Shown piece by piece: positions 19,910-36,961 of a DNA stretch of 64,000 bases (positions are counted from its first letter, which is position 1; each line of letters opens with the position of its first letter). This DNA is from an uncultured Bacteroidia bacterium (GTDB lineage Bacteria; Bacteroidota; Bacteroidia; Bacteroidales; F082): positions 32,314 through 96,313 of the forward strand of contig CADCIH010000009.1 of the NCBI GenBank assembly GCA_902801465.1, in the 5' to 3' direction. The position numbers were made by a program, and so were the translations under genes. The notes under the pieces are model-generated. The model saw nothing but the letters and a program-made list of their open reading frames with translations. It was not told the DNA's origin and made no database searches.

Positions 19910-20995
19910 ATGGACGGCTTTAAGAATATAGAAATCAGCAACTTCAGAGGTATTAAACATCTAATCATAGATGATTTCTCAAGAGTTAATGTATTTCTTG
20001 GACAGAATAATTCAGGAAAAAGTTCTGTGTTAGAGGCTATATTACTATTGGCAGGAATGTCAAACCCAGATTTGCCTCTTAGTTTGAATAAGGCAAGAAC
20101 ACGTAATTTTCGAATTGCCTCTCTGCAAGAAACCCGCTACCAATTCTATAATCTAGATTTAACAAACACTCCAGAGTTTTCATCATTGCAGATGGATGGA
20201 ATTAGCCGACATTTACAGACGAGGCTTTTTCATACAGAAACTCCAGATGATGGAGTGCAATCTATTGACGAGCCACTTATTCTGTCAGAAACAGTGAGAC
20301 TGCCCAATACATTAGAGATGCTCTATGATATCACCACGAGCAACGGGACTAAGCGTTTTCGCAGTTCTCTATTTATCAACCAATCTGACGTAGTATCGCG
20401 CCAAGAGCCGTCCAAAGAGTATGTTGAAAAGAATTCTGCGGTATTATTCTCGTCAGATTTGCTATCAAGCAATCTAACTAAGGATTTGTCGGAATTATTT
20501 AAGCGCAAGCTGAAAAACACTTTGTTAGAGTATCTGCAAAAATTCGACACAAAGATAAATGCGATTGAAATCTTGAACAATGATGTGTATGTTGGCTTTG
20601 AGGATGTCAAAGAGATGCTACCTATCAGTATGTCTGGTGATGGTTTACGGCGTTTCCTGAATATTGTTGCTGGTTCGGCAAATCCAAACAACACCATGAT
20701 TCTCATTGACGAAATCGACAACGGCCTGCATTATTCCGCTTACAAGAAGCTTTGGGAGGCCATCTTCGCCTTGGCCACTGACACCAACAAACAGGTGTTT
20801 GTGACCACCCACAGCAAGGAAACTCTTTACCGCTTGAACGAGATGCTGGAAGAACATTCGGAGTATCAGGATGCGTTACGACTCTATACGATTGAAAACA
20901 CCAAACTGAAAGGGCATCAAGCCTATAAATATACCTTTGAGGGACTTGCAGAAGCGTGTAATAATGACATTGAAATCAGAAGCGTTGTGTTATGA
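19910..20995 (+). CDS. SMC/OLD-like AAA ATPase of a PARIS-like pair
   Basis: This 361-residue protein opens with 'ISNFRGIKHLIIDDFSRVNV', has Walker A 'GQNNSGKSS' (31-39), a signature-like 'ISMSGDGLRRFLNI', Walker B 'MILIDEIDNGLH' and the H-loop 'VFVTTHSKET'. This is an ABC-type AAA_15/AAA_21 ATPase as in OLD nucleases and PARIS AriA. The nuclease TOPRIM domain that follows in single-chain OLD proteins is absent but is supplied by the next gene, which overlaps by 4 nt. I infer an abortive-infection or phage-sensing role. It leads the long defence operon. Confidence 0.85.
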   Translation: MDGFKNIEISNFRGIKHLIIDDFSRVNVFLGQNNSGKSSVLEAILLLAGMSNPDLPLSLNKARTRNFRIASLQETRYQFYNLDLTNTPEFSSLQMDGISRHLQTRLFHTETPDDGVQSIDEPLILSETVRLPNTLEMLYDITTSNGTKRFRSSLFINQSDVVSRQEPSKEYVEKNSAVLFSSDLLSSNLTKDLSELFKRKLKNTLLEYLQKFDTKINAIEILNNDVYVGFEDVKEMLPISMSGDGLRRFLNIVAGSANPNNTMILIDEIDNGLHYSAYKKLWEAIFALATDTNKQVFVTTHSKETLYRLNEMLEEHSEYQDALRLYTIENTKLKGHQAYKYTFEGLAEACNNDIEIRSVVL

Positions 20996-21612
20996 AAGGC
21001 TTGTTCACCATATATGTAGAGGGCATTGCTGATGTGGTATTCTTCAAGCAATACATTCATCATTTGTGGGGCGTTGAGGTTCCTGAGAACAGCATCGTGA
21101 AGCTGGATGGTTGGACCAATCTCAAAGGAGCCGCTTGGCAACAGCGCATGAAAACCATGACTGACAATGGCGGCACAAATATCGTCATCATTGATGCTGA
21201 CAAAGATATTGACGCCCGTCGTTCCGACATTCTCAAATGGAAACAAGATAATAGTTTGGAGTTTGAGTTGTTTTTGCTTCCCAACGACAAAGATGCAGGT
21301 GCATTGGAAGACCTATTGGAAAACATCATCAACCCGAACAACAAGCCGATTTTTGAATGTTGGGAAAACTACGAAAAGGAACTGGTGAAATTGGACATTC
21401 CAGGCAGAACGCCCCCGCCCTTGACCACACCAGCCAAGAAAACAAAGATTTACGGGTATCTCGAAGCATTGCTTTTTGAAACAAAGAGCCAGAAAGAATT
21501 GATTAAAGAACCCAACCGCGACTATGAGAACACCCTGCATTGGAATTTGGATGCGGCGTATTTGGGGGCGTTGAAGGGGTTTTTGGAGAGGAATTTAAAG
21601 GAAGAAAACTAA
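20992..21612 (+). CDS. TOPRIM-like DUF3226 protein, partner of the ATPase
   Basis: This 206-residue protein has TOPRIM-type acidic motifs: Glu in 'IYVEGIADVVFFKQY' (about residue 10) and Asp-x-Asp in 'VIIDADKDID'. These are followed by 'FLLPNDKDAGALEDLL', typical of DUF3226. Such domains are metal-dependent nucleases in OLD-like pairs. In PARIS the equivalent partner AriB carries DUF4435 instead, so this is PARIS-like rather than PARIS. The start overlaps the ATPase stop (ATGA), supporting a stoichiometric complex. The methyltransferase start is 2 nt after this stop. Confidence 0.8.
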   Translation: MKGLFTIYVEGIADVVFFKQYIHHLWGVEVPENSIVKLDGWTNLKGAAWQQRMKTMTDNGGTNIVIIDADKDIDARRSDILKWKQDNSLEFELFLLPNDKDAGALEDLLENIINPNNKPIFECWENYEKELVKLDIPGRTPPPLTTPAKKTKIYGYLEALLFETKSQKELIKEPNRDYENTLHWNLDAAYLGALKGFLERNLKEEN

Positions 21613-21614
21613 CT

Positions 21615-22670
21615 ATGGGAAGGCATAAGAATAAATATAAGGCTATTGACTTCTTCTGCGGAGGAGGCGGGATGACGTGTGGACTGCGCCAGGCGGGGAT
21701 TGATGTGATTGCCGGAGTGGATTTTGACGGAAATGCAAAAGAGACATACGAGTTCAACAATCCTGGCAGTACATTTATTTACAAAGATATTAAAAACCTT
21801 TGGAGCGATTATTTTGAAAGAAACTTTGGTGTAAAAAAATACGACGACAAATTAATTATGGTTGGTTGTAGCCCATGCCAATATTATAGTATTATCAATA
21901 CCGACCATAGTAAAGCTGAAAAATCAAAAGGCTTATTGATCAATTTCGCCCGTTTTATCGAGTACTATAGACCTGGATATGTCTTAGTTGAAAATGTTCC
22001 AGGAATAGTTACAAACAAAGAAACCGCCTTATATCGTTTTTTGGATAAGCTGGACTCTCTTGGTTACAAAAATGTGGTCAAAGAAATTGTTGATATGAGT
22101 CAATACGGAGTTCCACAAAGTCGCCGGAGGTTTTCACTCATCGCTACCCGATTGGATGGCGTACAAGTTTCTTTACCCCAAAAGTCAAAAAAAGTACTTA
22201 CTGTAGCTGATGTTTTAGGGGTCGAAAATGGCTTCCCGAAAATAAAGGCAGGACATAAAGACACTACTGACTTTCAACATACAGTTGCAGGATTAAGCGA
22301 AATTAGTTTGAAACGTATGGCGTTGACACCTCACAATGGAGGAAACCGTTTGAGTTGGGCGGACCAACTCGAATTACAGCTTGATTGTTACATCGGGAAA
22401 GATGACATTTTCAAAGACAATTATGGCCGTATGTGGTGGAATAGGCCAGCACCAACAATTACTACAAAGTTTTTCAATATATCTAATGGTCGGTTTGCAC
22501 ATCCAGATGAAGACCGAGCAATATCTATCCGAGAAGGGGCAACGCTACAAACATTTCCCAAAGAATATGTATTTAAAACAAATAGTATTGCAGGAGCAGC
22601 CCGTATCATTGGAAACGCAGTACCTTGCAAGTATGCAAAACAACTAGGTCAATTAATTCAATCGCTTTAA
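21615..22670 (+). CDS. DNA cytosine-C5 methyltransferase 1
   Basis: This 351-residue protein is taken from the ATG at 21615. The frame runs 25 codons further back into the previous gene. C5 motifs are I 'AIDFFCGGGGMTCGL', IV 'GCSPCQYYS' (catalytic Cys), VI 'VLVENVPGI', VIII 'QSRRRFSLIA' and X 'IIGNAVPCKYAKQL'. The target-recognition region is short. It methylates cytosine within an unknown site. It directly precedes the GHKL and receiver-like genes with 2-nt spacing and is clearly distinct from the two later methyltransferases, so it probably has a different target. Confidence 0.93.
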   Translation: MGRHKNKYKAIDFFCGGGGMTCGLRQAGIDVIAGVDFDGNAKETYEFNNPGSTFIYKDIKNLWSDYFERNFGVKKYDDKLIMVGCSPCQYYSIINTDHSKAEKSKGLLINFARFIEYYRPGYVLVENVPGIVTNKETALYRFLDKLDSLGYKNVVKEIVDMSQYGVPQSRRRFSLIATRLDGVQVSLPQKSKKVLTVADVLGVENGFPKIKAGHKDTTDFQHTVAGLSEISLKRMALTPHNGGNRLSWADQLELQLDCYIGKDDIFKDNYGRMWWNRPAPTITTKFFNISNGRFAHPDEDRAISIREGATLQTFPKEYVFKTNSIAGAARIIGNAVPCKYAKQLGQLIQSL

Positions 22671-22672
22671 TT

Positions 22673-25654
22673 ATGGCTCAATTCAGAACACGCGCAAGAA
22701 CATTGGACTTGTTGGGAAGACAACAAATTGCTGGAATTCCTACTGCCATTAACGAATTGATAAAGAATGCGTATGATGCCTATGCAGATCATTTTGATAT
22801 AGATTATTTCAGAAAAGATCGATTAATTGTATTGCGAGACGATGGCATAGGAATGACTAAGGATGAGTTTGAGTCAAGATGGCTTACTTTGGGTACAGAG
22901 AGTAAGTTTAAAAATACTCATTCAAGCCTGCCACCAATTGATCCAGACAAAGAAAGAAGACCCATTACAGGAGAAAAAGGCATAGGAAGATTGGCCATTG
23001 CCTCTATTGGCAAACAAGTACTTATTCTTACTAAATCAAAATTCTCATCTAACCATCCTCAACCGTTTGTTACTGCATTTATAAATTGGTCTTTTTTTGA
23101 ACTACCTGGAATCAATTTAGAGGATATTGTTATACCTATTCAAGAATTTGACCATGTTCCTACAGAATCTGACATCTCATTTTTAAAGCAGCAGGTACTG
23201 GATAATATTGAAAAACTATTTATTAAAGAACTTATAGATTTAAATGCGCGGGATCGATTCAGAAACGATGTCACATCATTTACGGTCAGTCCTTCTGACC
23301 TGCTCAACACGTTACAAGGAATCACCAATTTTAAAAACAACACAGGAGGAACTCATTTTTATATTTCGCCAGTTGACGATGTTCTTAATTCAGATATTGA
23401 TGGTGAATCTGGATCCGATGAAGCCACTAAAATGGAAAAAATGCTTCTGGGTTTTCATAACACCATGACACCTAATCATCCCAAACCTCAAATTGATATA
23501 GCTTTTAGAGAGTATCGCGAAGACAAGGAGTCATTTGAAAGTATTATAGATAAAGAACATTTTTTTACTCCGGAGGAATTTGAATTGGCGGACCATCAAT
23601 TTAGCGGCTCTTTTGATAAATACGGCCAATTTAAAGGTGATATTAGAATATATGGAGAAAAAACATACAAGGATTATGTGGTAAACTGGAAAGAGAATCA
23701 TTATCGAGAAACCCTTTGTGGCCCATTCACAATCAACTTTGCTTATATACAAGGAGAACAAAAAAGCTCCAGATTATCAATTGAAGACTATTCCCGTATT
23801 AAGGCAAAGGGAGACAAATTTGGAGGATTGTATATTTACAGAAACAACATAAGGGTCCTTCCCTATGGCGATTCGGATTATGATTTTTTAGATATTGAGA
23901 AAAATCGTTCAAAGCGCGCTTCTACGGCTTTTTTTTCATACAGACGAATGTTTGGAGCAATATCAATTTCTGAAGATGACAAAAAAAGTTTGTTAATTGA
24001 AAAAGCCGGAAGAGAAGGTTTTATTGAGAACAGAGCCTATAAGGAATTGCAATCAATACTTAAGAATTTCTTGTGGCAATTGGCTACTGAGTTTTTCTTT
24101 GATGGTAGCACCTCGCCATATTCTGAATTTTACAAAGAGAAAAAAGAGGAATTCAACTCACATTATGAAGCATTGGCAAGGCGAGAAAAACTAAATAGCG
24201 GTAAGAAAAAAAAGTTCTTACGAGAATTATCCCAATTTTTCGAATCTTTGACCAATCATACGATAGATAACGAGATTCAAAAAATCATAGATGACTTTTC
24301 GCAACAATTATTAAATATCGGGTATGAACAAGACGAAGATGTTGCCAGCGAAAAAATTCTACGGGCAGAATTTGATGTTAGGAAGAAACTGTCTGATTAT
24401 AAAAAGCAGATAGCCGTGTCCGCTCCCCGTGGTTTTACAATATCAAAAGGTTCAAGACAAGATTTTGAGGCATATTGTGTTGAATATGACAATTTACAAA
24501 AAACCATTTTCAAAGAGGCCGAAGAAAAAATAGACAATCTTATTGAGGCATATACAAAGGCTCGTAATTTTGAAATCAGCAAACGCAAAAGATTGGAACA
24601 AGCTGTTGAATTGATTTCATCAGAAGCCAAATCTATAAATCAAAAGAAGCGTTTGGAAACCAATGACATTGTTTCTTCGGTTTCAAAAAAAGTTAAAGAA
24701 TTAACCTCTGAACTTGTAATGGATCTTGACAAACAGATACAAAATGTTCATGAGCAATTCATTGCATTAAAAACCAAAGATTCTGATACTTTTGATTTGG
24801 TTCAAGAGCGTCAAAGAATGGAAGATGAGATAGAAACCATCAGTCAAAGAAACACATCCTTGATGGATAGAATAATCCGTCAATTCGAAAGTTTTTATGT
24901 CGAAAAGGACGAAGAAGGCAACATTATAACTAATGATCAAATAGCAGAAAGCGTTTCAGAAGAACTGGACTCGTTGAAAGAACAACTACAAGCAGATATT
25001 GAATTGAGCCAGTTGGGGTTGGCTGTTGGGATAATTCATCATGAGTTTAATAGCACCATAACATCTATTCGTCATAGTTTGAAGGATTTACGGGCATGGT
25101 CTGATGTCGATGAGAACTTGGAAGGAATATATAAAAACATCAAGGTTAATTTTGAACATTTAGACCGATATTTGGCACTTATGACGCCATTAAATAGACG
25201 ATTATATAGAGAAAGAGAAGATATTCCGAACTCTGATATCAAATCCTTCTTGAATGATTTATTTAAAAATCGACTGGAGCGGCATGGAATTGATTTTAAA
25301 CAAACGAATGGTTTCTCGCACGGACATATCTATGGTTTCCGTTCAACTTTTTATCCCGTTTTTGTCAACATAATTGACAATGCTATTTATTGGCTGTCAC
25401 AAAGCGAACAACCTAAGAAAGTGATTCGATTACATGCAGATGATTCCGGAATATATATTTCCAATAATGGTCCCGCAATACCAATACAAGATAAAGAGCG
25501 TATCTTTGAATTGCGCTTTTCTCGAAAACCCAATGGAAGAGGTTTGGGATTAAACATCAGTAGAGAAATACTAAATGGAGAAGGTTATGACTTGTTACTT
25601 GTCAACCCTATGCCAGAGGCTAATGTCACATTTAAAATCCAAAAACATGAATAA
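22673..25654 (+). CDS. Double GHKL ATPase: MutL/Hsp90-type N-domain, histidine-kinase-type C-terminus
   Basis: This 993-residue protein starts at the ATG at 22673. The N-terminal GHKL fold has Glu28 and Asn32 in 'INELIKNAYDAY', 'DDGIGM' (56-61) and 'GEKGIGRLA' (100-108), as in MutL, Hsp90 and MORC. A long helical/coiled-coil region (about 590-780) follows. Next comes an H-box-like 'GIIHHEFNSTITSIRHSL' (His789/790), an N-box 'NIIDNAIYWL' (from 899) and the G-box 'GRGLGLNISREIL' (from 955), as in sensor kinases. MutL/MORC-like ATPases linked to restriction-modification operons are known. Carrying both GHKL types is unusual. The next gene encodes a receiver-like partner and overlaps by 8 nt. I infer an ATP-driven DNA-sensing phosphorelay. 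Confidence 0.88.
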   Translation: MAQFRTRARTLDLLGRQQIAGIPTAINELIKNAYDAYADHFDIDYFRKDRLIVLRDDGIGMTKDEFESRWLTLGTESKFKNTHSSLPPIDPDKERRPITGEKGIGRLAIASIGKQVLILTKSKFSSNHPQPFVTAFINWSFFELPGINLEDIVIPIQEFDHVPTESDISFLKQQVLDNIEKLFIKELIDLNARDRFRNDVTSFTVSPSDLLNTLQGITNFKNNTGGTHFYISPVDDVLNSDIDGESGSDEATKMEKMLLGFHNTMTPNHPKPQIDIAFREYREDKESFESIIDKEHFFTPEEFELADHQFSGSFDKYGQFKGDIRIYGEKTYKDYVVNWKENHYRETLCGPFTINFAYIQGEQKSSRLSIEDYSRIKAKGDKFGGLYIYRNNIRVLPYGDSDYDFLDIEKNRSKRASTAFFSYRRMFGAISISEDDKKSLLIEKAGREGFIENRAYKELQSILKNFLWQLATEFFFDGSTSPYSEFYKEKKEEFNSHYEALARREKLNSGKKKKFLRELSQFFESLTNHTIDNEIQKIIDDFSQQLLNIGYEQDEDVASEKILRAEFDVRKKLSDYKKQIAVSAPRGFTISKGSRQDFEAYCVEYDNLQKTIFKEAEEKIDNLIEAYTKARNFEISKRKRLEQAVELISSEAKSINQKKRLETNDIVSSVSKKVKELTSELVMDLDKQIQNVHEQFIALKTKDSDTFDLVQERQRMEDEIETISQRNTSLMDRIIRQFESFYVEKDEEGNIITNDQIAESVSEELDSLKEQLQADIELSQLGLAVGIIHHEFNSTITSIRHSLKDLRAWSDVDENLEGIYKNIKVNFEHLDRYLALMTPLNRRLYREREDIPNSDIKSFLNDLFKNRLERHGIDFKQTNGFSHGHIYGFRSTFYPVFVNIIDNAIYWLSQSEQPKKVIRLHADDSGIYISNNGPAIPIQDKERIFELRFSRKPNGRGLGLNISREILNGEGYDLLLVNPMPEANVTFKIQKHE

Positions 25655-27239
25655 TAACAACGAAGAGAAACCCTTTGTCACCTTATCCCGTGAGATTGCA
25701 GATAAGTTTATTCGTGATATTGTTTTTATTGACGAGCAAGCATACCCGGAAAAAATAAAAAACACAATTGAAGCAGCCGTTCACAATAACGAATTTGATG
25801 CCAAGTCTGTTTCTGACGCTTTTTTAAAGAAAGGTAAAATATGTGCTATTTATGCGCCACAAACTGAAGAGGATATATATGATTGTGCTGTTTCGCTTTT
25901 AAAAGCAGACGTTGTTGTATTAGACTGGAATTTAAGGTTAAATACCACTTCCGAATATGATCCCATGGCAGATGATGAATCTGATAATCGTGGTCACTAT
26001 ACAAAACCGCTTATCAAGAAGTTGGTTGATGAAGCTAGTACTGATAAAGTAAAATTAATTATTGTATATACGGGCGAAACGGATTTAAATGAAATAACCG
26101 ACCAAATTCAAAAATACATCAATGTTCCCCCAAGTCTTATTAAAGAGGATTGTTTGTTACATACTCAAACGAACAATATTCGTATTTTGGTAAGAGCAAA
26201 AGAGACTTCTCAATTTGAACATATTGAACAATACAAAAGCAAAGTTGTAAAATATGATGAATTGCCGAACATTATTGTTAATGAGTTTGCTGAGATAACA
26301 ATGGGTTTGCTGCCAAATTATGCTTTGTCTGCAATTACTGCCATTCGAGATAACACATCTAATATTTTAGGTGTCTTTTCAAAAGATATTGATCCTGCAT
26401 TTTTAGGGCACTATGTTTCAATTCCTGATTGTAACGATGCTATTTCTATGTTGCCCAAAATATTTGGTACGGCAGTGGCTAATTTGATTGAAAATAGTGA
26501 TGTAGATTTTGATAGTTGGATTGAAGCATGGATTGATGAAAATATAAAAGTTGATCAGATTACGATAGGAAAAAAGAAGTTTACCATTAATGCTGATAAT
26601 CTAAAAGCCTTCGTAAGACCTGATGAAGGCTTTGGAAATAAACTCAATACTATCTTTAATGCTAATATTGATGTTGAGAATTTGAATCAAGTTGATTTCT
26701 ATAAAAAAGAAGCATCAAGCTTGTTCTGTTCTGGTGATACAAAGCACCCTAATTACAAATGGGCAAAATTAGTTCAGCATAGTAATTTATTTTCTTCACC
26801 CAAAATTCATCGGCTTACGATAGGAACAATTATTAAGTATAAAGAAGAAGATAAGTTTTTAATATGCATTCAACAAAGTTGTGATTCTGTGAGAATTTCA
26901 GCAGACGAAGAGCGGCCCTTTTTATTTTTACCATTAGTGCAAGGTATTAAAGGAGAAGCCATTGTCGTTGGAGAACAAGACCATTTGATTGTAGATAATA
27001 AATCGTATTCGATTAAATTGCATAGATTCTCGCCTAAGGAGAATGACTCAAATATTAAAGCAGAACTAAAAGAGAATGGTGAGTATGTGTTTGAAGACAC
27101 TGACGGCAAGCAATTTGTTTGGGTAGCGGAGTTAAAAGAAATGTTCGCTCAACACATCGTTGCTGCTTATACATCTCAATTATCAAGAGTAGGAATTGAC
27201 AATTCTGAATGGATTAGATTGATTGGAAAAACAAAATAA
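25647..27239 (+). CDS. Receiver-like (Response_reg_2 type) protein, partner of the GHKL ATPase
   Basis: This 530-residue protein is read from the ATG at 25647, which overlaps the GHKL stop by 8 nt. The N-terminal 150 residues follow a receiver pattern: acidic pair Asp29-Glu30 ('DIVFIDEQA'), candidate phospho-acceptor Asp93 ('DVVVLDWNLRL') and Thr142 ('LIIVYTGETD'). An insertion rich in acidic residues follows Asp93. The remaining 380 residues are not recognisable to me. They include 'FLICIQQSCDSVRIS' and 'PFLFLPLVQG'. No nuclease motif is clear. It probably receives a phosphoryl or conformational signal from the GHKL protein and controls the restriction genes. Confidence 0.78.
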   Translation: MNNNNEEKPFVTLSREIADKFIRDIVFIDEQAYPEKIKNTIEAAVHNNEFDAKSVSDAFLKKGKICAIYAPQTEEDIYDCAVSLLKADVVVLDWNLRLNTTSEYDPMADDESDNRGHYTKPLIKKLVDEASTDKVKLIIVYTGETDLNEITDQIQKYINVPPSLIKEDCLLHTQTNNIRILVRAKETSQFEHIEQYKSKVVKYDELPNIIVNEFAEITMGLLPNYALSAITAIRDNTSNILGVFSKDIDPAFLGHYVSIPDCNDAISMLPKIFGTAVANLIENSDVDFDSWIEAWIDENIKVDQITIGKKKFTINADNLKAFVRPDEGFGNKLNTIFNANIDVENLNQVDFYKKEASSLFCSGDTKHPNYKWAKLVQHSNLFSSPKIHRLTIGTIIKYKEEDKFLICIQQSCDSVRISADEERPFLFLPLVQGIKGEAIVVGEQDHLIVDNKSYSIKLHRFSPKENDSNIKAELKENGEYVFEDTDGKQFVWVAELKEMFAQHIVAAYTSQLSRVGIDNSEWIRLIGKTK

Positions 27240-27244
27240 TATAT

Positions 27245-28459
27245 ATGCCAAAGAAAAAATACACATTCATAGATTTGTTCGCAGGTTGTGGAGGCCTTTC
27301 GGAAGGCTTTTATCGACAAGGGTTCAAGGCACTTGCCCATGTCGAATTTGACCATTCGTGTTGTGAGACCTTACGAACAAGAATGAAGTATTATGGTTAT
27401 AAAGATTATGATAAAGAAGTAATTGAATACGATATAACTTCAAAAGATATTCTTGAAAGGATTGATGATGCAGTTGCTGGAAGGACTGTAGATATTATTA
27501 TTGGTGGCCCACCGTGCCAAGCATATTCAACAGCGGGAAGAGTTAGGGATGGAAAGAAAATGGCCACCGACCCACGCAACTATCTATTTGAGAGTTATGT
27601 AAAGATATTAGAGCATTATAATCCTAAGTATTTCGTTTTCGAAAATGTAACTGGACTTCTTTCGGCGCAGGTTAATAATTCTCCGATATTCCCTAAAGTT
27701 TTAAAGGCACTTGGAAAAAAGTATAAAGTAGTAGGAAACCCTAATGTCCTCATTCATAATACCGCTGACTATGGGGTGCCTCAAGTTCGCAAACGTGTTA
27801 TTATTATCGGAGTGCGAAAAGATATTGAGAAAGACCCATTGCAGCTATATGAGGATGTTGTAAAGACGCATTGGAATCCTGAAACACCAGAAGACGAAAG
27901 ACATGGAAAAAGACACTTTATTGATGTCAGAAAGGCAATTGGAGATTTGCCTCCAGTAGAGCCAGGATGCGATGCCTCAACGCAAGAGTTTCTATATCCG
28001 TGCAACAACGAGTTCCTTAGACGAATTGGCAAAAAAGGTATATATCCACTTATGGATCATATTGCTCGTAGCCATAACGAGTTGGATAGAGAACGCTTTC
28101 AGGTTATGATTCATAATCATTGGACTTTTGGACAACTGAGAAGGGAAATGCCACAGTATGAGCATGAACATGCCAGAGTATTTGATAACAGTTATGTGGT
28201 GCAATGGTGGGACTTGCCATCTAAAACCATATTGGCTCATATTCATAAAGACGGATTTCAATTCATTCATCCTGATGAGGCTCAGAAACGTACATTTACG
28301 GTGCGAGAGGCGGCAAGGATTCAATCTTTCCCTGATGATTTTGAGTTCAAAGGTTCGAGGGGTGAAAAATACAAACAAATCGGCAATGCAGTTCCACCGC
28401 TTTTTGCAGAGGCTCTTGCAAAATCCATAAAGATGAATCTAGACGACTTACCAGAATGA
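27245..28459 (+). CDS. DNA cytosine-C5 methyltransferase 2 (LlaJI-like M1)
   Basis: This 404-residue protein has C5 motifs I 'TFIDLFAGCGGLSEGF', IV 'GGPPCQAYSTAG', VI 'YFVFENVTGLL', VIII 'QVRKRVIIIG' and X 'QIGNAVPPLFAEAL'. It is followed with a 4-nt overlap by a second methyltransferase, then a McrB-like GTPase and a nuclease. That order is the layout of LlaJI-type restriction systems, where two methyltransferases modify the two strands of an asymmetric site. The exact target cannot be read from sequence. Confidence 0.93.
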   Translation: MPKKKYTFIDLFAGCGGLSEGFYRQGFKALAHVEFDHSCCETLRTRMKYYGYKDYDKEVIEYDITSKDILERIDDAVAGRTVDIIIGGPPCQAYSTAGRVRDGKKMATDPRNYLFESYVKILEHYNPKYFVFENVTGLLSAQVNNSPIFPKVLKALGKKYKVVGNPNVLIHNTADYGVPQVRKRVIIIGVRKDIEKDPLQLYEDVVKTHWNPETPEDERHGKRHFIDVRKAIGDLPPVEPGCDASTQEFLYPCNNEFLRRIGKKGIYPLMDHIARSHNELDRERFQVMIHNHWTFGQLRREMPQYEHEHARVFDNSYVVQWWDLPSKTILAHIHKDGFQFIHPDEAQKRTFTVREAARIQSFPDDFEFKGSRGEKYKQIGNAVPPLFAEALAKSIKMNLDDLPE

Positions 28460-29961
28460 TTTTTGAGAATGCAACACGGTTGACAAGTAAGGAAGAATTT
28501 GTAGAGAAAATCCTTATCTATATCCGCTTAGTAGAAGTCATCGCTGAGCGTGATAAAATTATCATACCACAAACTCCTACTACATCAAAAGAAGTCGTGA
28601 AGGAGCTGCAAGATATGGGTGTAATTGAAGAAGAAACTGAACTGACTGACTTAAAACGAGTTGTCGGGAATGAATATACACGATTTATTTCTTCGGTTGC
28701 TTTTTATATAACTCACAAACAACTTTATGGCGATTATCTTGACAGACTCAATAATAAGAAACGGAAAGAAATTCAAGCAAAAGAGGCAAAAAGCAAAAAC
28801 CCCAAGATGGTTGATTTCTTTGCAGGCGCAGGTGGGTTAAGTTGTGGATTTGTCCAAGCTGGATTTAGGGTTTGTTTTGCCAATGATTTTGAGGATGTTT
28901 GTGTTAGGACATTTCGTTTCAATCATCCCGAACTGCCCTCAAAAAACGTATTGAAAGAGGATATTAGAAAGATAGTCGACAATATAGAGGACTTTGTGGA
29001 TGAAGATGTTGACATTGTAGTTGGAGGTCCTCCTTGCCAAAGTTTCAGCAGTGCAAATCAGCGAAGGATAATTGATGATCCTCGTAATGAGTTATACAAG
29101 TATTACATTGAAGCCATCAAGAAACTTTGTCCAAAGTTTGTTGTGATGGAGAATGTCAAGGGAATGCTATCTGTAGCCAGTCAAGTTGTAGAAGATTATA
29201 AATCCATCAGAATCGAAAAAAATGGCAAAGAGTATTCCTATGATGTTTCATATCGCTTGCTTAATTCTGTGAACTTTGGGGTGGCACAAAGCAGGGAAAG
29301 GCTTATCTATCTTGCCATCAGGAATGATGTAATAGATTCTAAACGCATAACACCTGAGATTCTATTTCAAAAGATAGAAAAAGCCTGCGAGAAGAATCCT
29401 CATTATAACCTTCAAGCAGCTCTAGAATATATAAAGCCTTTGGACGCTCCGCGTATCAAAGGATTGACGGAAGTCGATGATGAGAAAACTGGCATGAAGA
29501 TAGATGTCAACACCTATGATAGTTGCGGAAATCCATATCTGGCCAGCATCAATGCAGGGCGTGAGATACCTTATGTTTTCAATCATAAGGCACGCTATTG
29601 CAGTGATGTGAATTACGAGATATTCAAGAGATTGGGACAAGGAGAAGATGCCACAAACCCAAAAATCGCAGATATAATGCCTTATGCAAGAAGGAACGGC
29701 ATTTTCAAGGACAAATACTTCAAGTTGTATGCTGATAGGCCTTGTAGAACCATTACTGCTCATTTGAAAATGGACTGCCTTTCCCATATTCATCCTTTCC
29801 AAATTAGGAGTATCACTCCACGCGAAGCAGCAAGAGTTCAATCTTTTCCAGACGATTATCTATTCCTTGGAGCTTACTTAAAGACCTATATGCAAATAGG
29901 TAATGCAGTGCCAGTATTGATGGCCAAACAAATTGCTAATATAATCAAAAAATACTTATAA
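28456..29961 (+). CDS. DNA cytosine-C5 methyltransferase 3 (LlaJI-like M2) with N-terminal extension
   Basis: In this 501-residue protein residues 1-118 are a helical, charged extension absent from the other two methyltransferases. It could be a DNA-binding or regulatory segment. The catalytic part has motifs I 'MVDFFAGAGGLSCGF', IV 'GGPPCQSFSSA', VI 'FVVMENVKGML', VIII 'QSRERLIYLA' and X 'QIGNAVPVLMAKQI'. It is translated with 4-nt overlap from methyltransferase 2, and the GTPase gene follows after 2 nt. It is probably the second strand-specific enzyme of the LlaJI-like system. Confidence 0.93.
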   Translation: MIFENATRLTSKEEFVEKILIYIRLVEVIAERDKIIIPQTPTTSKEVVKELQDMGVIEEETELTDLKRVVGNEYTRFISSVAFYITHKQLYGDYLDRLNNKKRKEIQAKEAKSKNPKMVDFFAGAGGLSCGFVQAGFRVCFANDFEDVCVRTFRFNHPELPSKNVLKEDIRKIVDNIEDFVDEDVDIVVGGPPCQSFSSANQRRIIDDPRNELYKYYIEAIKKLCPKFVVMENVKGMLSVASQVVEDYKSIRIEKNGKEYSYDVSYRLLNSVNFGVAQSRERLIYLAIRNDVIDSKRITPEILFQKIEKACEKNPHYNLQAALEYIKPLDAPRIKGLTEVDDEKTGMKIDVNTYDSCGNPYLASINAGREIPYVFNHKARYCSDVNYEIFKRLGQGEDATNPKIADIMPYARRNGIFKDKYFKLYADRPCRTITAHLKMDCLSHIHPFQIRSITPREAARVQSFPDDYLFLGAYLKTYMQIGNAVPVLMAKQIANIIKKYL

Positions 29962-29963
29962 TT

Positions 29964-32075
29964 ATGAGCGCTTCAAGAATCATTCAGTACATTCATCGCC
30001 CTACATTGACCGAATTAGGCATGGGCAATACCCATGATAGGTATTTGGTTGTAGATGCTGATAAAGACTTATCTAATGTATTCCCATTAGGTGTCGCCGT
30101 CAATCTTACAGATACGGTTTCGAATAAAGTATATCAGGTTTATTCTAAAGTTGAAACCGGTGAGTTTAGATTAAAACGATTGGGTGATATTGTTGATGAT
30201 TATCACATGGAACCAGGCGATGAGTTAGTAATAACGCACTATGAATTATCAGGTAATGTAATAGACATGCTAACTGTTAATGAATGCGGTCGTGTGTTAC
30301 TCAATCCGGGGAAAAGAAAAGACGGAAAAATCGAGGATTTTGAAATAGTGAATATTGAAAGACTTCCTGGATATTCTGAAAATAAGGAATACTCTTATGC
30401 TTGTGAATTTAATGGCTTACAAAAAGATATTCAGATTTCATTCATTGGAGCTAGAAAGAAACGCTCAGATTCTCCAATTGAAACCAAGTTTTACTCTGTG
30501 CAGTTTGACAAAGAGAAGCTCGACTATGACCCTAAGAAGTATTACTATTTGACGATTCGAAATGGTGTAATTGTCATGAGAAATCTACCAAAGAGTGAAT
30601 ATCATGTATTACTTGAATCATCAGATGCGAACGGCACAGTTAACAAGCCCAACAAAAACGACCTGCAAGTTATTTATTACGGTGCGCCTGGCACTGGAAA
30701 ATCACACACTATTAAATGTGAGGTTGATGATAAAGAAAAACCTTGTGAGCGAACAACATTCCACCCAGACAGTGACTACTCAACATTTGTGGGCGCGTAT
30801 AAGCCCACATCTATTGAGGTTCCTCTTAGAGACCTCGCTGGGCATGTGGTTTCAGATGAAAAGACAAAGGAAATAGTGTATGAGAATCGTATCGTATATG
30901 ATTTTGTGCCACAAGCGTTCTTGAAGGCATATACAGAGGCATGGAGAGACCAAAGCAAAGATTTTTACTTGATTATCGAGGAAATCAACCGAGGCAATTG
31001 TGCTCAAATCTTTGGTGACTTATTCCAACTGCTTGATAGAAATGATGAGACTGGGCGTTCCAAATATCCCATTTCACCCGACCAAGACATCAAGAAGTTT
31101 TTGCTGACTGACAAGAAATATGGCTTTGCTGCATTGACGGATGAGCAAAAAGCCGCGATGCCAGAGGAAGTATTGAGCGGTGAGCGACTGGTTTTGCCTC
31201 AAAATCTACATATATGGGCCACGATGAACACCAGCGACCAATCTCTCTTCCCCATTGACTCAGCCTTCAAACGTCGTTGGGATTGGCAATACATTCCCAT
31301 TTCAAACGCGAACAAAGGATGGATGATTGAGGTGAACGGAAAGAAATACGATTGGTGGGATTTCCTTGAAAAGATGAACGAACAAATCAATACCACCACT
31401 AATTCTGAAGACAAGAAAATGGGTTACTTCTTCTGCAAGGCCAAAGGAGGTATCATCGATGCCAAGACCTTTGTAGGCAAGGTGGTGTTTTACGTGTGGA
31501 ATGATGTGTTCAAAGACTTTGCTAATGAAGCAGGCAGCATATTTAAGGATGAGGATGGCACGTTGTTGTCGTTTAATAAGTTCTATACCGTAGGCAACGA
31601 TGGCAAGGCAAAAGTTGTTGAGGACAAGGTAATGCTTTTTTTACAGAATCTTGGAGTAGAACCAATTTCAGAAGTCAATACTGAAGACATTATTGAAGAT
31701 GAAGATGGGAATAGAGCATCATCAACCAGTCGTGATTATAGCAAGTTTTCTATCAATGGGATAGGAAGGTATCCTAAGAACAGTCTTGCGGCAGAGTGTA
31801 TGAGAAAATACATTGAGCTTAACCCTAGTATGTCAATAAATGAAGTTCTTTCTAATTGGAGAGAATTGGGAAACATCGTTCCTCATTTTGTTGAATCAAA
31901 AGATGAATATGAAGCCCGAACAGACAATAGCAAACGTTCTCATGAGATTCCTTGTAACGGCTCTTTTATCTATGTTGCTCATAATGGATATGGCGATAAC
32001 GGTAAGGTTTTCACACTTATTGAAGCTGTTAATAAAATGAATTGGGGGCTAACACTTGCAAAGGTTGAAGAATGA
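29964..32075 (+). CDS. McrB-like AAA+ GTPase (LlaJI R1-like)
   Basis: In this 703-residue protein residues 1-220 are a beta-rich N-terminal region, the place where LlaJI.R1 carries its site-specific DNA-binding domain. Residues 235-560 are an McrB-type AAA+ module: Walker A 'GAPGTGKS' (240-247), Walker B 'LIIEEINRGNCAQIFGD' and the sensor region 'MNTSDQSLFPIDSAFKRRW'. McrB-family motors use GTP and drive translocation with a nuclease partner. The partner is the next gene, overlapping by 4 nt. The N-domain does not look like the methyl-specific domain of E. coli McrB, so cleavage of unmodified sites is likelier. Confidence 0.88.
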   Translation: MSASRIIQYIHRPTLTELGMGNTHDRYLVVDADKDLSNVFPLGVAVNLTDTVSNKVYQVYSKVETGEFRLKRLGDIVDDYHMEPGDELVITHYELSGNVIDMLTVNECGRVLLNPGKRKDGKIEDFEIVNIERLPGYSENKEYSYACEFNGLQKDIQISFIGARKKRSDSPIETKFYSVQFDKEKLDYDPKKYYYLTIRNGVIVMRNLPKSEYHVLLESSDANGTVNKPNKNDLQVIYYGAPGTGKSHTIKCEVDDKEKPCERTTFHPDSDYSTFVGAYKPTSIEVPLRDLAGHVVSDEKTKEIVYENRIVYDFVPQAFLKAYTEAWRDQSKDFYLIIEEINRGNCAQIFGDLFQLLDRNDETGRSKYPISPDQDIKKFLLTDKKYGFAALTDEQKAAMPEEVLSGERLVLPQNLHIWATMNTSDQSLFPIDSAFKRRWDWQYIPISNANKGWMIEVNGKKYDWWDFLEKMNEQINTTTNSEDKKMGYFFCKAKGGIIDAKTFVGKVVFYVWNDVFKDFANEAGSIFKDEDGTLLSFNKFYTVGNDGKAKVVEDKVMLFLQNLGVEPISEVNTEDIIEDEDGNRASSTSRDYSKFSINGIGRYPKNSLAAECMRKYIELNPSMSINEVLSNWRELGNIVPHFVESKDEYEARTDNSKRSHEIPCNGSFIYVAHNGYGDNGKVFTLIEAVNKMNWGLTLAKVEE

Positions 32076-34237
32076 GAATCCTCATTGAAGAATACCAGTA
32101 CGATGTAGCCAAAGTGAAGGACATTCTTCACGGCATTGATGCCTTGGAGAATGTGGAGGGTAAAGTCTCCATTCACTATGTAGGGTATTACTATAACACC
32201 CTACTGAAGGACTGCGTGTTCATTCTTCCCAAGGTGCTTCTCAAAGACGTGGATGGGCAAGAACTGGCTTTTGGTAAATACAAGCCAGAAGACATCGTTT
32301 CGCCTGACCAAAACAAGGAGATGGAAGCAAGGGAAAAGGACTTCCTCTATAAGTTTGCCGTTTGGATATACCGTGCCATCGTTGTGTATAAAAACGACAA
32401 ACGGAATGACACTGACATCGTGTATCACACAAAGATCGCGCAGATTGGCAAAGGTATGCGTAGGCTTAGCAACACCTACCTTGACATTCTGCTGCAGCTG
32501 CTGCAGTTCAACAAAGACAACCAGAGTTTCTTCTTCTTCATCGTGAAGAATCTCCATTTAGGATACAACAAAATCAACTGGACGCGCACTATCAGCCGTG
32601 AGATGGCCATCGTGCAAAGCGGACAGCCTGTTTACCTAAAGCCAGTGAACAAGAAACGGCAAATCAACTTTGACGAAGAACTGCTGGTGATTTTCTTCTC
32701 CATCTTGAATTACATCGGCGACACCTACGGTTTCGCAAAAGACATCAAATGCCAGTTTAACCTCATCAAAGGTCCGCAGTTCCAGACCTACCTCAATGGC
32801 TATGGATTGACGAGGCTGAGGCAAATCAAATACAAGTATTTCTCAGACAAGGCACTGGAGCTTTGGAATTTGTGCTATGCTTTCTTCGACGAATCGCGGC
32901 AAGTGTTTGTCAGCACTGAGAAGAAAGAGTATTTGCTGGTGAAGAGCTTCTATATTGTCTTTGAGGCCATCATTGATGAACTGATAGGCGACAATCCGTT
33001 GCCGGATGACATGGAGAAGAAGCAGGAGGACGGCAAGATTGTCGACCACCTCTATACAGCGAAGAGTCTCATAGAGAGCGAAGCAGCACAGACCTATTAC
33101 ATTGGTGACTCGAAGTATTACAAGATGGGGCATCCGATTGGGGATGAATCCATCTACAAACAGTACACCTATGCCCGAAACGTCATCCAATGGAATCTTG
33201 ACATCTTCAACCGAGGCGAACAGCCGAAGTCGGGCGTGAGGTTGCGTGATGACGTGACTGAGGGCTACAACATCATTCCCAACTTCTTTGTGTCGGCCAA
33301 GATGGACGAGACCTTCAGCTATACCAACGACGGCATAGAGAAAACCGACAGAAAGAATAATAGGCACCGCAAAGAGCAATTCAAGAATCGTCTCTTTGAC
33401 CGTGACACGCTTTTGCTATTCCATTATGACGTGAACTTCCTCTTCGTGTTGTCGCTGTATGCTAGGGACAATGCTTCGCAGAAAGCAGCATGGAAACAAG
33501 AGGTACGAAAGAAGTTCCGCACAGAGATACAGACATGGTTACAAGATGAGAAGGAGGGCTTTGCATTCTATGCGATGAAAGCTCGCCCAGGTGTGGATGC
33601 GCGTCAATACTTCAAGATGCATTTTCAAGACATTCTTGGAAAGACCTACACTCCTTATGACTCAGAAGAGGTCTATTCATTGGCCTTAGACAGAAAAGAC
33701 CCTGAGGGCGACAATGAGAGCTTGCTCGCAGAACTGCGCCAGTATTTCATTGTGGTGCCGTGCGGGTTAGGCGCAGATCCTGAACCCATCATTGAAGCTG
33801 CTAGAAAATCGGATGACGGTACAGTGCCGGCACCCGAGAAAGACGGTGTGCTAATGGTTATGATGGAATACTACGATAACAAGAGCAAAGAATTCATTTC
33901 TTCAGGGAAACTTGCAGTTGGCATCAAGTACACGCCTGATTCGATGGAGATAGTACAGAACCTATCTTCCATCGGATATGTGCTCTTCCATCATCGCAGT
34001 AATGTTGGCCAACATCTGTTTGCAGTGAAAGGAGCCTGCAAGGTTGTGCAATCAAAGGCTGTGGAAGCAGACCGATACAAAAACGTGGAAACGACAGAAA
34101 TGTTCGTTGTCGTGGACATAGATACCACAGTTGAACTGGATGCTTCAGTGATGGATGCGAGTAAGAAGGAATGCACCAAGCAGACCAGGTATGATGCGCA
34201 ATATTCGAGATTAAAGGATTTGGTTGCTCCACAATGA
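32072..34237 (+). CDS. LlaJI-family restriction endonuclease subunit (R2-like)
   Basis: This 721-residue protein has helical N-terminal two-thirds and a PD-(D/E)xK-type site near the middle: 'YYIGDSKYYKMG' with Asp346 and Lys348, then 'IYKQYTYAR'. This fits the nuclease partner of McrB-like motors in LlaJI and BsuMI systems. It contains long aromatic-rich segments and no membrane helices. The gene is less AT-rich than the preceding island genes. Its stop codon overlaps the start of the housekeeping pfkB-type gene by 4 nt, so the island joins the resident operon without a gap. Confidence 0.85.
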   Translation: MRILIEEYQYDVAKVKDILHGIDALENVEGKVSIHYVGYYYNTLLKDCVFILPKVLLKDVDGQELAFGKYKPEDIVSPDQNKEMEAREKDFLYKFAVWIYRAIVVYKNDKRNDTDIVYHTKIAQIGKGMRRLSNTYLDILLQLLQFNKDNQSFFFFIVKNLHLGYNKINWTRTISREMAIVQSGQPVYLKPVNKKRQINFDEELLVIFFSILNYIGDTYGFAKDIKCQFNLIKGPQFQTYLNGYGLTRLRQIKYKYFSDKALELWNLCYAFFDESRQVFVSTEKKEYLLVKSFYIVFEAIIDELIGDNPLPDDMEKKQEDGKIVDHLYTAKSLIESEAAQTYYIGDSKYYKMGHPIGDESIYKQYTYARNVIQWNLDIFNRGEQPKSGVRLRDDVTEGYNIIPNFFVSAKMDETFSYTNDGIEKTDRKNNRHRKEQFKNRLFDRDTLLLFHYDVNFLFVLSLYARDNASQKAAWKQEVRKKFRTEIQTWLQDEKEGFAFYAMKARPGVDARQYFKMHFQDILGKTYTPYDSEEVYSLALDRKDPEGDNESLLAELRQYFIVVPCGLGADPEPIIEAARKSDDGTVPAPEKDGVLMVMMEYYDNKSKEFISSGKLAVGIKYTPDSMEIVQNLSSIGYVLFHHRSNVGQHLFAVKGACKVVQSKAVEADRYKNVETTEMFVVVDIDTTVELDASVMDASKKECTKQTRYDAQYSRLKDLVAPQ

Positions 34238-35205
34238 ATACTAATCGCGTCCTCGGCATCGGAGAAACCGTCCTTGATATCCTCTTCAAAGACGACCAAC
34301 CCCTAAAAGCGGTCTCTGGCGGCTCCACTTTCAACAGCATTGTCTCGCTAGGAAGGGCAGGGGTGAACTGCGCCATGGTGACGGAAGTGGGGGATGACCA
34401 CGTAGGCGATCTAATTTGCAACTATCTGAAAGAGAATGGCGTGTCTTCGGAATACGTCTTTCGTCGCGAACACGGCAAATCACCCATCTCATTGGCGTTT
34501 CTCGATGAGCATAACGATGCACAATATGTGTTCTATAAAGACCCATCGCCCGTCGCACTCAGCGGAAAGCTGCCAGTGTTTACCAAGGACGATGTGGTGC
34601 TCTTCGGGTCGTTCTTTGCCATCAATCCAGCCATACGTCAAAAAGTGGGCGGTTTACTGCGTAAAGCGCACGAAGCGGGGGCTTGGCTTTATTATGATGT
34701 CAATTTCCGCAAAAACTATATCGCCGACATCCCTGTCCTGAAGCCTAATATCGAAGAGAACATGAGCCTGGCCAACGTGGTGCGCGGCTCGATGGAGGAT
34801 TTCAACTATCTGTACGGCCTGAATGACGGTGATGCCATCTACGCACGGGTGAGTCGCTATTGTACTACATTGATACTTACGGATGGCGCGCGCCCCATCC
34901 GGGTCTATACACCCGAGGGTTGCGAGACTTATCCCGTGCAGCCCATCGAGACCGTCAGCACGGTCGGCGCCGGCGACAACTTCAATGCGGGTTATATCTA
35001 CGCCAAAATCACCACCTCGTCATCGATGCATCCTAACTTCCCACGTTACCTCCCTTCGGTCGGTGAGGGCTTACGCCGTTCCACTTTTCACTTTCCACTT
35101 ATCGCAATGGCCCAACGTTGGAGCCAAGACGTCTGTCGGCAGTTAGGCAATAACATCAGCGACGAATTGGTCGCATCTTTAACCCATCAGAAGAGAACAC
35201 TATGA
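34234..35205 (+). CDS. PfkB family carbohydrate kinase
   Basis: This 323-residue protein has N-terminal 'GGSTFNSIVSLGRAG' and the C-terminal anion-hole/catalytic motif 'STVGAGDNFNAG'. The first Asp of the usual DTxGAGD is Ser, while the catalytic GAGD Asp is kept. It phosphorylates a sugar, probably fructose or a nucleoside, and the substrate is not deducible. Near the C-terminus a heptad repeat block (35079-35099) is translated as 'RSTFHFPL', which looks like an insertion into the protein. The start overlaps the R2-like nuclease stop and the stop overlaps the Nudix start (both ATGA). Confidence 0.9.
   Translation: MNTNRVLGIGETVLDILFKDDQPLKAVSGGSTFNSIVSLGRAGVNCAMVTEVGDDHVGDLICNYLKENGVSSEYVFRREHGKSPISLAFLDEHNDAQYVFYKDPSPVALSGKLPVFTKDDVVLFGSFFAINPAIRQKVGGLLRKAHEAGAWLYYDVNFRKNYIADIPVLKPNIEENMSLANVVRGSMEDFNYLYGLNDGDAIYARVSRYCTTLILTDGARPIRVYTPEGCETYPVQPIETVSTVGAGDNFNAGYIYAKITTSSSMHPNFPRYLPSVGEGLRRSTFHFPLIAMAQRWSQDVCRQLGNNISDELVASLTHQKRTL
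35079..35099. repeat. Heptad repeat inside the pfkB-type gene, 3 units (TTCCACT)
   Basis: TTCCACT, TTTCACT and TTCCACT lie in exact 7-bp register within the coding sequence, adding about seven codons in frame. Confidence 0.65.
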
Positions 35206-35690: not shown

Positions 35691-35691
35691 T

Positions 35692-36363: not shown

Positions 36364-36367
36364 CATT

Positions 36368-36961
36368 ATGACCGACCGCCTCACACCAGAACAGCGTCAC
36401 CTCGTGATGTCGCACATCCACGGCAAAGGCACCAAGCCCGAGCTGAAGGTGAGGCAATGGCTGTGGCACCACGGCTACCGCTACCGCCTCAACGTGAAGT
36501 CGGTGCCTGGAAAACCGGATATCGTAATGCGGAAATACCATACGGCCATTTTTGTGAATGGGTGCTTCTGGCATGGACACCATTTGGAGTGGAAAGCGGA
36601 AAGTGGAACCCCGAAGGGCTCACCGACCGAATGGGAGGTAAAGTGGAAAGTTGAAAACGGAAAATGTTGTAAGATTCCGGAGACGAATCGAGAATTTTGG
36701 GTGAATAAAATTAAAAGAAACCAGGAACGGGACCAAAAGAATTACCAGGTGCTGCAGGACAACGGATGGCAGGTGATTATCGTTTGGGAATGCCAACTGA
36801 CCCCAAAACGCATCGAACATACCATGGGTGAAGTGGAAATGCTCCTCAACAACAAACTGCTTTCTCTTTATAGCAAACATACGCCCTTCCCGTACCCTTC
36901 GGAAGAAGAAGCTCCGCTTCCGATGGCCGCAGAAACCTTGCCGTATCAATCCAAAGAATAA
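36368..36961 (+). CDS. vsr: Very short patch repair endonuclease (Vsr)
   Basis: This 197-residue protein has Vsr motifs 'MSHIHGKGTKPELKVR', 'VPGKPDIVMRKYHTAIFVNG' (catalytic Asp), 'CFWHGHH' (zinc ligands) and 'IPETNREFWVNKIKRNQERD'. Vsr nicks beside T:G mismatches produced when 5-methylcytosine deaminates. Three C5 methyltransferases upstream in the same transcriptional direction fit this. Between 'FWHGHH' and 'CCKIPETN', where relatives have only a few residues, there are about 30 extra residues. They are largely encoded by two 3-unit heptad repeats. The C-terminus also extends past the usual end. Activity may be altered. Confidence 0.9.
   Translation: MTDRLTPEQRHLVMSHIHGKGTKPELKVRQWLWHHGYRYRLNVKSVPGKPDIVMRKYHTAIFVNGCFWHGHHLEWKAESGTPKGSPTEWEVKWKVENGKCCKIPETNREFWVNKIKRNQERDQKNYQVLQDNGWQVIIVWECQLTPKRIEHTMGEVEMLLNNKLLSLYSKHTPFPYPSEEEAPLPMAAETLPYQSKE
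36588..36662. repeat. Two heptad repeat blocks inside vsr
   Basis: AGTGGAA, AGCGGAA and AGTGGAA (36588-36608) and AGTGGAA, AGTTGAA and AACGGAA (36642-36662), each in 7-bp register, are separated by 33 bp. Together they encode most of the extra segment of the Vsr protein. Confidence 0.75.

Follow-up and report, generated by a model that had tools for sequence, protein, structure and literature searches.

Why would a restriction operon keep, between its DNA methylases, two large genes that resemble a sensor kinase and its receiver? The question is raised by a 64,000-nucleotide stretch of DNA from an uncultured Bacteroidia bacterium (contig CADCIH010000009.1, positions 32,314 to 96,313), here called the window, whose source genome comprises 2.46 Mb in 34 contigs. 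The window contains a triplet formed by a C5-cytosine DNA methylase (M1), a GHKL-type ATPase and a receiver-like protein, followed directly by a cassette of the LlaJI type with two further methylases (M2 and M3), an McrB-like subunit (R1) and an McrC-like nuclease subunit (R2). A preliminary description of the locus proposed that phosphotransfer or ATP-driven signalling by the triplet gates the restriction system. Sequence comparison and structure models now favour a reading to which we give about even odds: the locus would be a compound restriction operon with an exchangeable module in which a MORC-type sensor signals by phosphorelay to an effector. The presence of different kinase-receiver pairs in one slot hints that a signalling switch which can be exchanged is built into some bacterial restriction systems.

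A predicted dual-GHKL kinase and receiver in one gene row

The triplet belongs to a row of nine plus-strand genes (19910-34237) that encode, in order, an AAA_15 ATPase, a DUF3226 protein, M1, the GHKL protein, the receiver, M2, M3, R1 and R2. The spacings between them are -4, 2, 2, -8, 5, -4, 2 and -4 nt, counting M1 from the ATG at 21615. Such tight spacing, from -8 to +5 nt across the whole row, suggests one transcript, and the nine genes are likely co-transcribed. Their GC content is low, at 0.33-0.46 per gene against 0.513 in the remaining window.

The GHKL gene (22673..25654, plus strand) encodes 993 amino acids (aa) from its ATG and carries three Pfam domains above their curated cut-offs: HATPase_c_3 at residues 24-123 (E 1.1e-15), HEF_HK (PF19191) at 780-846 (E 4.3e-27; 94.8 bits against a cut-off of 24.1) and HATPase_c at 894-968 (E 2.9e-15). 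Pfam, Foldseek and a 25-row alignment agree on the two GHKL domains and the kinase core that the preliminary description had read from the sequence. Its kinase-type H, N and G boxes also hold, but the H-box candidate shifts from about residue 789 to His790, and the domain belongs to HEF_HK and not to HisKA. His790-Glu-Phe, the N-box residues Asn899 and Asn903 and the G2 glycines 955, 957 and 959 are invariant in the homologs (25/25), and the front-half ATP site (Glu28, Asn32, Asp56, Gly58 and Gly60) is kept in all of the 23 rows, out of 25, that span that region.

An AlphaFold2 model made with the 25 homologs (mean predicted local distance difference test score, pLDDT, 75.1; predicted template modelling score, pTM, 0.52) shows residues 454-741 as long helices, a coiled coil that joins the GHKL front to the kinase rear. 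Foldseek matched this model to two groups of structures. In the first, long alignments (~470-600 columns) lead to SMCHD1, MORC2, MORC3, MORC4 and Hsp90, with E as low as 5.3e-11; in the second, alignments of only ~220-260 columns lead to histidine-kinase cores, among them those of CusS, ZraS and HK853 (E 2e-8 to 6e-8). As the output gives no query range, the groups are assigned to the front and rear halves from alignment length and Pfam order. The GHKL fold, ATP-binding motifs and transducer-like second domain (Foldseek, alignment) agree with a MORC/paraMORC protein, and restriction-enzyme matches from PADLOC and NCBIfam are confined to the N-terminal GHKL region (9-124).

The receiver gene (25647..27239, plus strand) starts at an ATG 8 nt inside the GHKL gene, as had been described, and encodes 530 aa with a Response_reg_2 domain, a helical middle and a beta-rich C-terminal module (Pfam, model, alignment). 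The Response_reg_2 (PF19192) match covers residues 21-187 (E 1e-26, above the curated cut-off). The acidic pair, Asp93 and Thr142 were picked out correctly at the outset and are conserved in 26-27 of 27 receivers: Asp93 in all 27, Asp29 in 26 (the remaining row is truncated by a contig end) and Thr142 in 26 (one Ser), with Lys185 also in 26 (one Arg). In the receiver model (pLDDT 81.6, pTM 0.78), strands alternate with helices; Asp93 directly follows one strand, and Thr142 closes the one after it. Foldseek lists response regulators at probabilities up to 0.98, interspersed with other Rossmann-like folds. Structure prediction, which had been put forward as a check, thus gives a clear result for the MORC/SMCHD1-like ATPase and the kinase-like rear and only a moderate one for the receiver fold.

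No Pfam family matches receiver residues 190-530. The C-terminal module nevertheless contains the motif C407-x-Q409-x-x-C412-D413-x-x-R416, invariant in 27/27 receivers; in the divergent receivers of alignment A1, C407, C412 and D413 stay invariant and Q409 varies. Pfam, PADLOC and NCBIfam found no nuclease domain in the methylase, GHKL or receiver genes, in line with the preliminary description. In most loci from L020 to L057 (loci compared here are numbered with L), the receiver is conserved less than its GHKL partner; L035, for example, shares 38% receiver and 62% GHKL identity with the window.

Homologous triplets in other genomes

Thirty-eight homologous triplet loci were compared, 10 chosen by PF19192 and 28 through the receiver's C-terminal motif; L028 and L030 lie on one contig, and PF19192 matches under the family cut-off (L009-L016) were excluded. 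Because L032 and L050 begin inside or at the receiver, 36 loci are assessable for the GHKL gene, and in every one (36/36) it immediately precedes the receiver in the same orientation. Two of the rows needed interpretation: L027 has a reverse open reading frame (ORF) called within an interrupted receiver, and L049 has its GHKL gene split in two ORFs. All loci that reach past the GHKL gene (32/32) have an M1-like methylase no more than two genes away from the pair. It is immediately upstream in 29 of these; L055 has a Vsr gene in between, and in L048 and L053 the methylase is immediately downstream on the opposite strand.

The genes downstream of the triplet vary. Nine loci (eight distinct) have an HNH_2 family gene, on the other strand in three, with membership assigned by Pfam for three and by BLAST clustering for the others. 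Further examples are an HNH gene in L044, NOV_C in L050, GHKL-Ymh in L035 and DUF2357-PDDEXK_7 nuclease genes in L029, L031 and L032, L031 also having an McrB-type AAA gene beside it. Two weak R1-like matches occur (L031 and L035), and no R2 homolog was found at any of the 38 loci (phmmer, E up to 1e-4), of which 27 extend at least 7 kb past the receiver. The triplet is therefore not dependent on R2 and can stand alone. Its receiver family is sparse, with PF19192 above cut-off in 8/296 genomes of the phylum and 4/119 relatives (own genome in both).

The slot upstream of LlaJI-type nucleases

R2 homologs occur in 4/296 phylum genomes and 18/118 relatives (own genome in both), and 18 R2 loci (L107-L124) were compared, leaving out genomes G311 and G357 and a second R2 place in G322. 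The A1 profile detects no Response_reg_2 gene at any of the 18. Six carry another dual-GHKL protein instead: L108, L109 (completed by L145), L112, L113, L114 and L121. HATPase_c_3 and HATPase_c are Pfam-confirmed in L108, L112, L113, L114 and L121, and both GHKL halves of L145 were recognised from motifs only. In a seventh locus, L110, a one-piece GHKL-Ymh protein (Pfam) occupies the slot. L117, L118, L119 and L124 have a methylase with R1 and R2 and no GHKL gene in the stretch compared, and L107, L120 and L122 stop near R1 or its neighbour, which makes them uninformative on the slot.

Receiver-like partners accompany the dual-GHKL protein in five of the six loci (L108, L109, L113, L114 and L121). 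The L108 receiver matches PF00072 (E 3.5e-7; 30.8 bits against a cut-off of 30.2) and is the sole alternative receiver, among those tested, to pass that cut-off. Its homolog stands in L114 (phmmer, 339 bits); the L121 receiver matches PF00072 under the cut-off (E 9e-5), and the L109 receiver family aligns with the window receiver domain (hhalign E 1.6e-5). The L113 partner was identified by eye and has no Pfam match, and L112 has a gap at the receiver place, where no receiver ORF was found.

By these sequence assignments, the slot that the module holds in the window, upstream of a LlaJI-type nuclease, is repeatedly filled by predicted dual-GHKL and receiver genes of other types. This divides the outcome of the neighbourhood search that had been suggested earlier. 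The exact triplet is found beside an R2 homolog at 0/38 loci, but other GHKL-receiver types recur at R2 loci; a triplet that never co-occurs with the cassette, named beforehand as grounds for dropping the idea, is not what is seen at the level of module type, with dual-GHKL proteins at 6/18.

Exchange of parts among loci

Comparison of related loci shows that the parts of these rows change partners. M1 of the window is 83-88% identical to its counterparts in L028/L030, L029, L031 and L110, the L110 protein standing at 86%. Its GHKL neighbours share 87% (L031), 63% (L030) and 32% (L029) identity with the window protein, and L110 has GHKL-Ymh instead. Within L031 itself, the GHKL protein is 87% but the receiver only 62% identical to the window.

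Receiver ends also fall into different types. The window's C-terminal module, referred to as the CD module, is common to the receivers of L109, L149 and L156 (hhalign E 1.4e-4, score 31.8, against 24.4 for the best of 200 column shuffles). Five related receivers (L121, L148, L153, L157 and L159) share the ending RN-x-[LF]-A-H (5/5), which fits the Rx4H signature of HEPN RNases. Six loci (L108, L112, L113, L114, L147 and L160) encode a further protein, separate from the receiver, that is marked by [GA]HG and [SA]C motifs. It is kept as a motif description: four tested examples (L108, L113, L114, L147) gave no Pfam match, L108 and L113 none in PADLOC, and L108 none among PDB sequences.

Methylases of other kinds are also found beside GHKL genes. 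In L145 and L149, the GHKL gene is preceded by a type II methylase of a different kind, assigned from PADLOC and a DPPY-like motif. L162-L164 have a GHKL gene, a receiver-like gene, a short HNH-like gene (HNH Pfam-confirmed in L164) and then a gene of ~530 aa, which in L163 is a type II methylase (PADLOC), so that the same logic appears with another methylase type and order. At L146 (4471-5571), the GHKL gene comes after a protein starting with an SGGKDS (PP-loop-like) motif, as in DndC of phosphorothioation systems. GHKL modules may also adjoin other DNA modifications. Carriage of the module by phages or plasmids was considered and set aside: the search returned a single unannotated Phocaeicola plasmid but nothing from a phage, and no relative was confirmed in viral contigs.

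Proposed mechanism

The sections above show gene order, domain content, residue conservation, predicted folds and the exchange of modules; beyond these, we infer phosphotransfer, a sensed signal and an output. M1 would methylate host DNA, and the MORC-like front of the GHKL protein would work as a clamp, driven by ATP, that senses the state of the DNA or of the restriction complex. The coiled coil would convey the clamp's motion to the kinase core (HEF_HK/HATPase_c), which would phosphorylate His790 and hand the phosphate on to Asp93 in the receiver. Once phosphorylated, the receiver would activate its C-terminal CxQxxCDxxR module, proposed to be an effector or adaptor, giving a second response alongside the LlaJI-type nuclease encoded downstream.

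Since GHKL-HEPN proteins and GHKL-kinase plus receiver pairs occupy the same methylase/nuclease slot, the simplest common role would be a GHKL sensor that triggers an effector, either in one piece or through a phosphorelay. On this view, the C-terminal module of the window receiver is likely to be an effector or adaptor, and not only a controller of R1/R2.

A wider proposal, which we put forward tentatively, is that restriction-modification (R-M) islands have a general sensor slot. There, a MORC-type ATPase/histidine kinase would monitor DNA or the restriction complex and relay phosphate to an exchangeable receiver-effector that backs up an McrBC- or LlaJI-type nuclease, and methylase, kinase-receiver and nuclease parts would reassort freely. 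The effectors, on the same tentative footing, would be the CD module, an HEPN-like RNase, the small [GA]HG/C protein or an HNH nuclease gene.

Several observations weigh against the phosphorelay-to-effector module. The receiver model has no Foldseek match at E <= 0.001, and its top-ranked structure is ARF1. Its rear shows no family common to the homologs and no significant relative among solved sequences, and neither a fold nor a family is recognised for the C-terminal module; a MazF/PemK fold, suggested by eye, was not supported by hhalign with 3 or 33 PemK sequences. For the GHKL protein, the model's pTM is only 0.52, the H-box helix (777-791) has pLDDT <50, and the second G1 glycine is often substituted in HEF_HK proteins (Ala in the window). 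Among the alternative effectors, the HEPN reading draws on one motif and one weak Pfam match (E 0.19, in 1/3 receivers tested), and a caspase or CHAT identity for the [GA]HG/[SA]C proteins was rejected after profiles of Peptidase_C14 (27 sequences) and CHAT (25) gave insignificant scores. Co-location in a defence island could also arise without functional coupling.

Alternative explanations

The alternative that survives best, although we consider it doubtful, makes the triplet a control unit of the LlaJI-type nuclease, with the phosphorylated receiver permitting or blocking the assembly or activity of R1/R2. The unbroken, tightly spaced gene row speaks for it, as does a survey of long GHKL genes (PF13589 in the 118 relatives; ORF of at least 700 aa and E <= 1e-14, plus G338 at 2.5e-13). 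Among the matches listed, 18/118 relatives have such a gene and seven genomes have it together with R2 (hypergeometric p 0.0068); in all seven, the two genes share a contig and lie at most 10 kb apart, and 10/18 long-GHKL loci have an McrBC-like nuclease downstream, DUF2357-PDDEXK_7 included. The cut, however, was set after the list had been seen and excludes four ORFs of 705-714 aa with weaker E. The co-occurrence is an association, and islands gather defence genes anyway. A naive adjacency chance of 2e-15 presumes random gene placement, which defence islands violate, and is not used as evidence. The control unit is further disfavoured by the 38 triplet loci with no R2 homolog, by the four R2 loci without a GHKL gene and by LlaJI itself, which is reported to work with four genes (PMC1459862). 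The link to LlaJI that was first proposed stands as a recurrent neighbourhood; direct control of the nuclease is one possibility, and an effector borne by the receiver is at least as likely.

An improbable alternative treats the triplet as a complete restriction system, in which M1 protects the host and the GHKL ATPase releases an unrecognised nuclease in the receiver's C-terminal part. It would fit the 16/38 triplets whose next four ORFs include none of at least 200 aa on the same strand (for example L034, L047 and L057), a count in which opposite-strand and short ORFs are mostly disregarded and some contigs end early. It would also fit the invariance of C407, Q409, C412, D413 and R416 and the Vsr label in 16/38 rows, as expected with an active C5-methylase. 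Against it, the receiver matches no nuclease family or fold, many loci have a separate nuclease gene (HNH_2, HNH, NOV_C), and its Cys-containing motif resembles no nuclease site known to us. Very unlikely is an ordinary two-component pair that tunes methylase or restriction gene expression and travels along by chance: kinase core and receiver are conserved and restriction genes are often under dedicated controllers, but the Pfam matches of the 27 receivers include no DNA-binding output domain, some alternative receivers end in or precede effector-like parts and not DNA binders, and the GHKL protein is similar, in its sensor half, to a MORC-type DNA/protein clamp.

Relation to known systems

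The kinase-receiver pair itself is already known from the open-access literature. Bellieny-Rabelo 2021 (PMC8011034) defined HEF_HK and Response_reg_2, found them linked in 91.6% of 644 regions, recorded a C5-methylase upstream and Vsr and HNH_2 as neighbours, proposed a two-component-like system tied to R-M and speculated on signalling that controls R-M systems. By sequence, the window clearly belongs to this family. It has both Pfam families in adjacent genes, a C5-methylase upstream and Vsr nearby, the HATPase_c_3, HEF_HK and HATPase_c order of group 1, a conserved H-box His, and a receiver with the acidic pair, Asp, Thr and Lys. Unlike the regions described there, the window unit passes directly into a complete LlaJI-type cassette; the accessible parts of that paper report no link to LlaJI or McrBC, no further receiver domain and no alternative GHKL-receiver lineages in the slot. 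New here are the union of the triplet with a LlaJI-type cassette and the shared slot, and for these reasons the window element counts as more than a new family member. The accessible part of PMC7159879 contains nothing bearing on a GHKL-receiver module, and a 2026 figure legend (PMC13092281) names HATPase and REC among the domains of predicted, unvalidated systems, a possible overlap with this work.

Other GHKL proteins of restriction and defence systems share parts of this arrangement. The MORC and paraMORC proteins of R-M operons described by Iyer 2008 (PMC2292703) are like the window protein in its predicted fold and in their cytosine methylase and Vsr surroundings, but theirs have a fused nuclease or TIR domain where the window has a kinase core and a receiver partner. 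VcSduA, a paraMORC3-type GHKL-Shedu nuclease (PMC12137116), loses phage defence when its ATPase site is mutated; its GHKL half controls a defence effector, as proposed for the window, but within a single protein that has a fused nuclease and, as described, no kinase core or receiver. In the GHKL-Ymh fusions of R-M operons, Ymh belongs to the HEPN family, and the fusions were proposed as PrrC/RloC analogues (PMC3710099). They too are described as single polypeptides, with a fused HEPN domain and neither kinase core nor receiver, unlike the window pair, and in L110 such a protein sits in the same slot between an M1-type methylase and a LlaJI-type cassette. BbrUII/HgiDII enzymes (NCBIfam NF050001) resemble the N-terminal GHKL region, but the window protein, at 70.2 bits against a cut-off of 550, is not a member. 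From a canonical two-component system, the window differs in having HEF_HK and PF19192 in place of HisKA (PF00512) and Response_reg (PF00072), and its receiver family shows no DNA-binding output.

LlaJI functions as a four-gene set in Lactococcus with the specificity GACGC (PMC1459862). Window positions 27245-34237 match it, as described there, in two same-strand 5-methylcytosine methylases and an McrB-like R1. R2 has PD...D/ExK-type residues and is likened to its counterpart by motif, not by R2.LlaJI sequence, and the window row has five additional genes in front of the four.

Other features of the gene row

All three methylases match PF00145 on the plus strand, which bears out the setting amid three C5 methyltransferases: M1 at 21615..22670 (E 2.9e-50; the longest ORF would begin at a TTG at 21540), M2 at 27245..28459 (E 3.8e-66) and M3 at 28456..29961 (E 1.2e-64), the last two being the first genes of the LlaJI-type cassette. 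R1 (29964..32075, plus strand) is an McrB-like AAA+ GTPase subunit by its AAA_5 Pfam match and its similarity to the solved McrB-type GTPase 6ut3 (E 6.7e-14). R2 (32072..34237, plus strand) has no Pfam match and is assigned from alignment and homologs as an McrC-like nuclease subunit; its candidate PD-(D/E)XK site comprises Asp320/Asp325 and Asp346-Ser-Lys348, invariant in a 19-row alignment.

The row opens with the AAA_15 ATPase gene (19910..20995, plus strand; Pfam), whose nearest PADLOC models are AbiLi and PDC-M38A, and the DUF3226 gene paired with it (20992..21612, plus strand; Pfam E 2.6e-12) through a -4 nt overlap. The same pair heads methylase-GHKL-receiver rows of several GHKL types (L028/L030, L108, L147 and L149). 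It may belong to the module or constitute an independent AbiL/PARIS-like system.

Close packing goes on beyond R2 (34234-36961), via three unrelated-looking genes, to a gene for a Vsr-type mismatch endonuclease (36368..36961, plus strand; Pfam E 6.5e-31). Lying three genes after R2, Vsr is a possible partner of the C5-methylases. The gene just before it (35671-36363) has an N-terminus like those of genes of ~223 aa that neighbour Vsr at L108, L110 and L112, which suggests a common insertion site. In L031, a Peptidase_S46 gene (L031:3607-5748) lies 193 nt upstream of M1; window ORF 13830-15962 is similar to it in size and perhaps marks the same chromosomal site. Promoters were not used as evidence, because sigma-70 and terminator scans of the window scored near shuffled sequences and a Bacteroidota-type promoter pattern had no matches.

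Significance

The His-Asp phosphorelay is best known as a chemistry of gene regulation. If the phosphorelay-to-effector module is real, the same chemistry would serve as a switch within DNA-cutting immunity, with MORC-type ATPases as its sensor half, and a general sensor slot, if it exists, would provide a phosphorelay-gated second line of immunity. Bacterial relatives of MORC would gain a testable role, as sensing by the ATPase half could be read out as phosphate on the receiver. It would also account for the large non-nuclease genes that some restriction operons retain.

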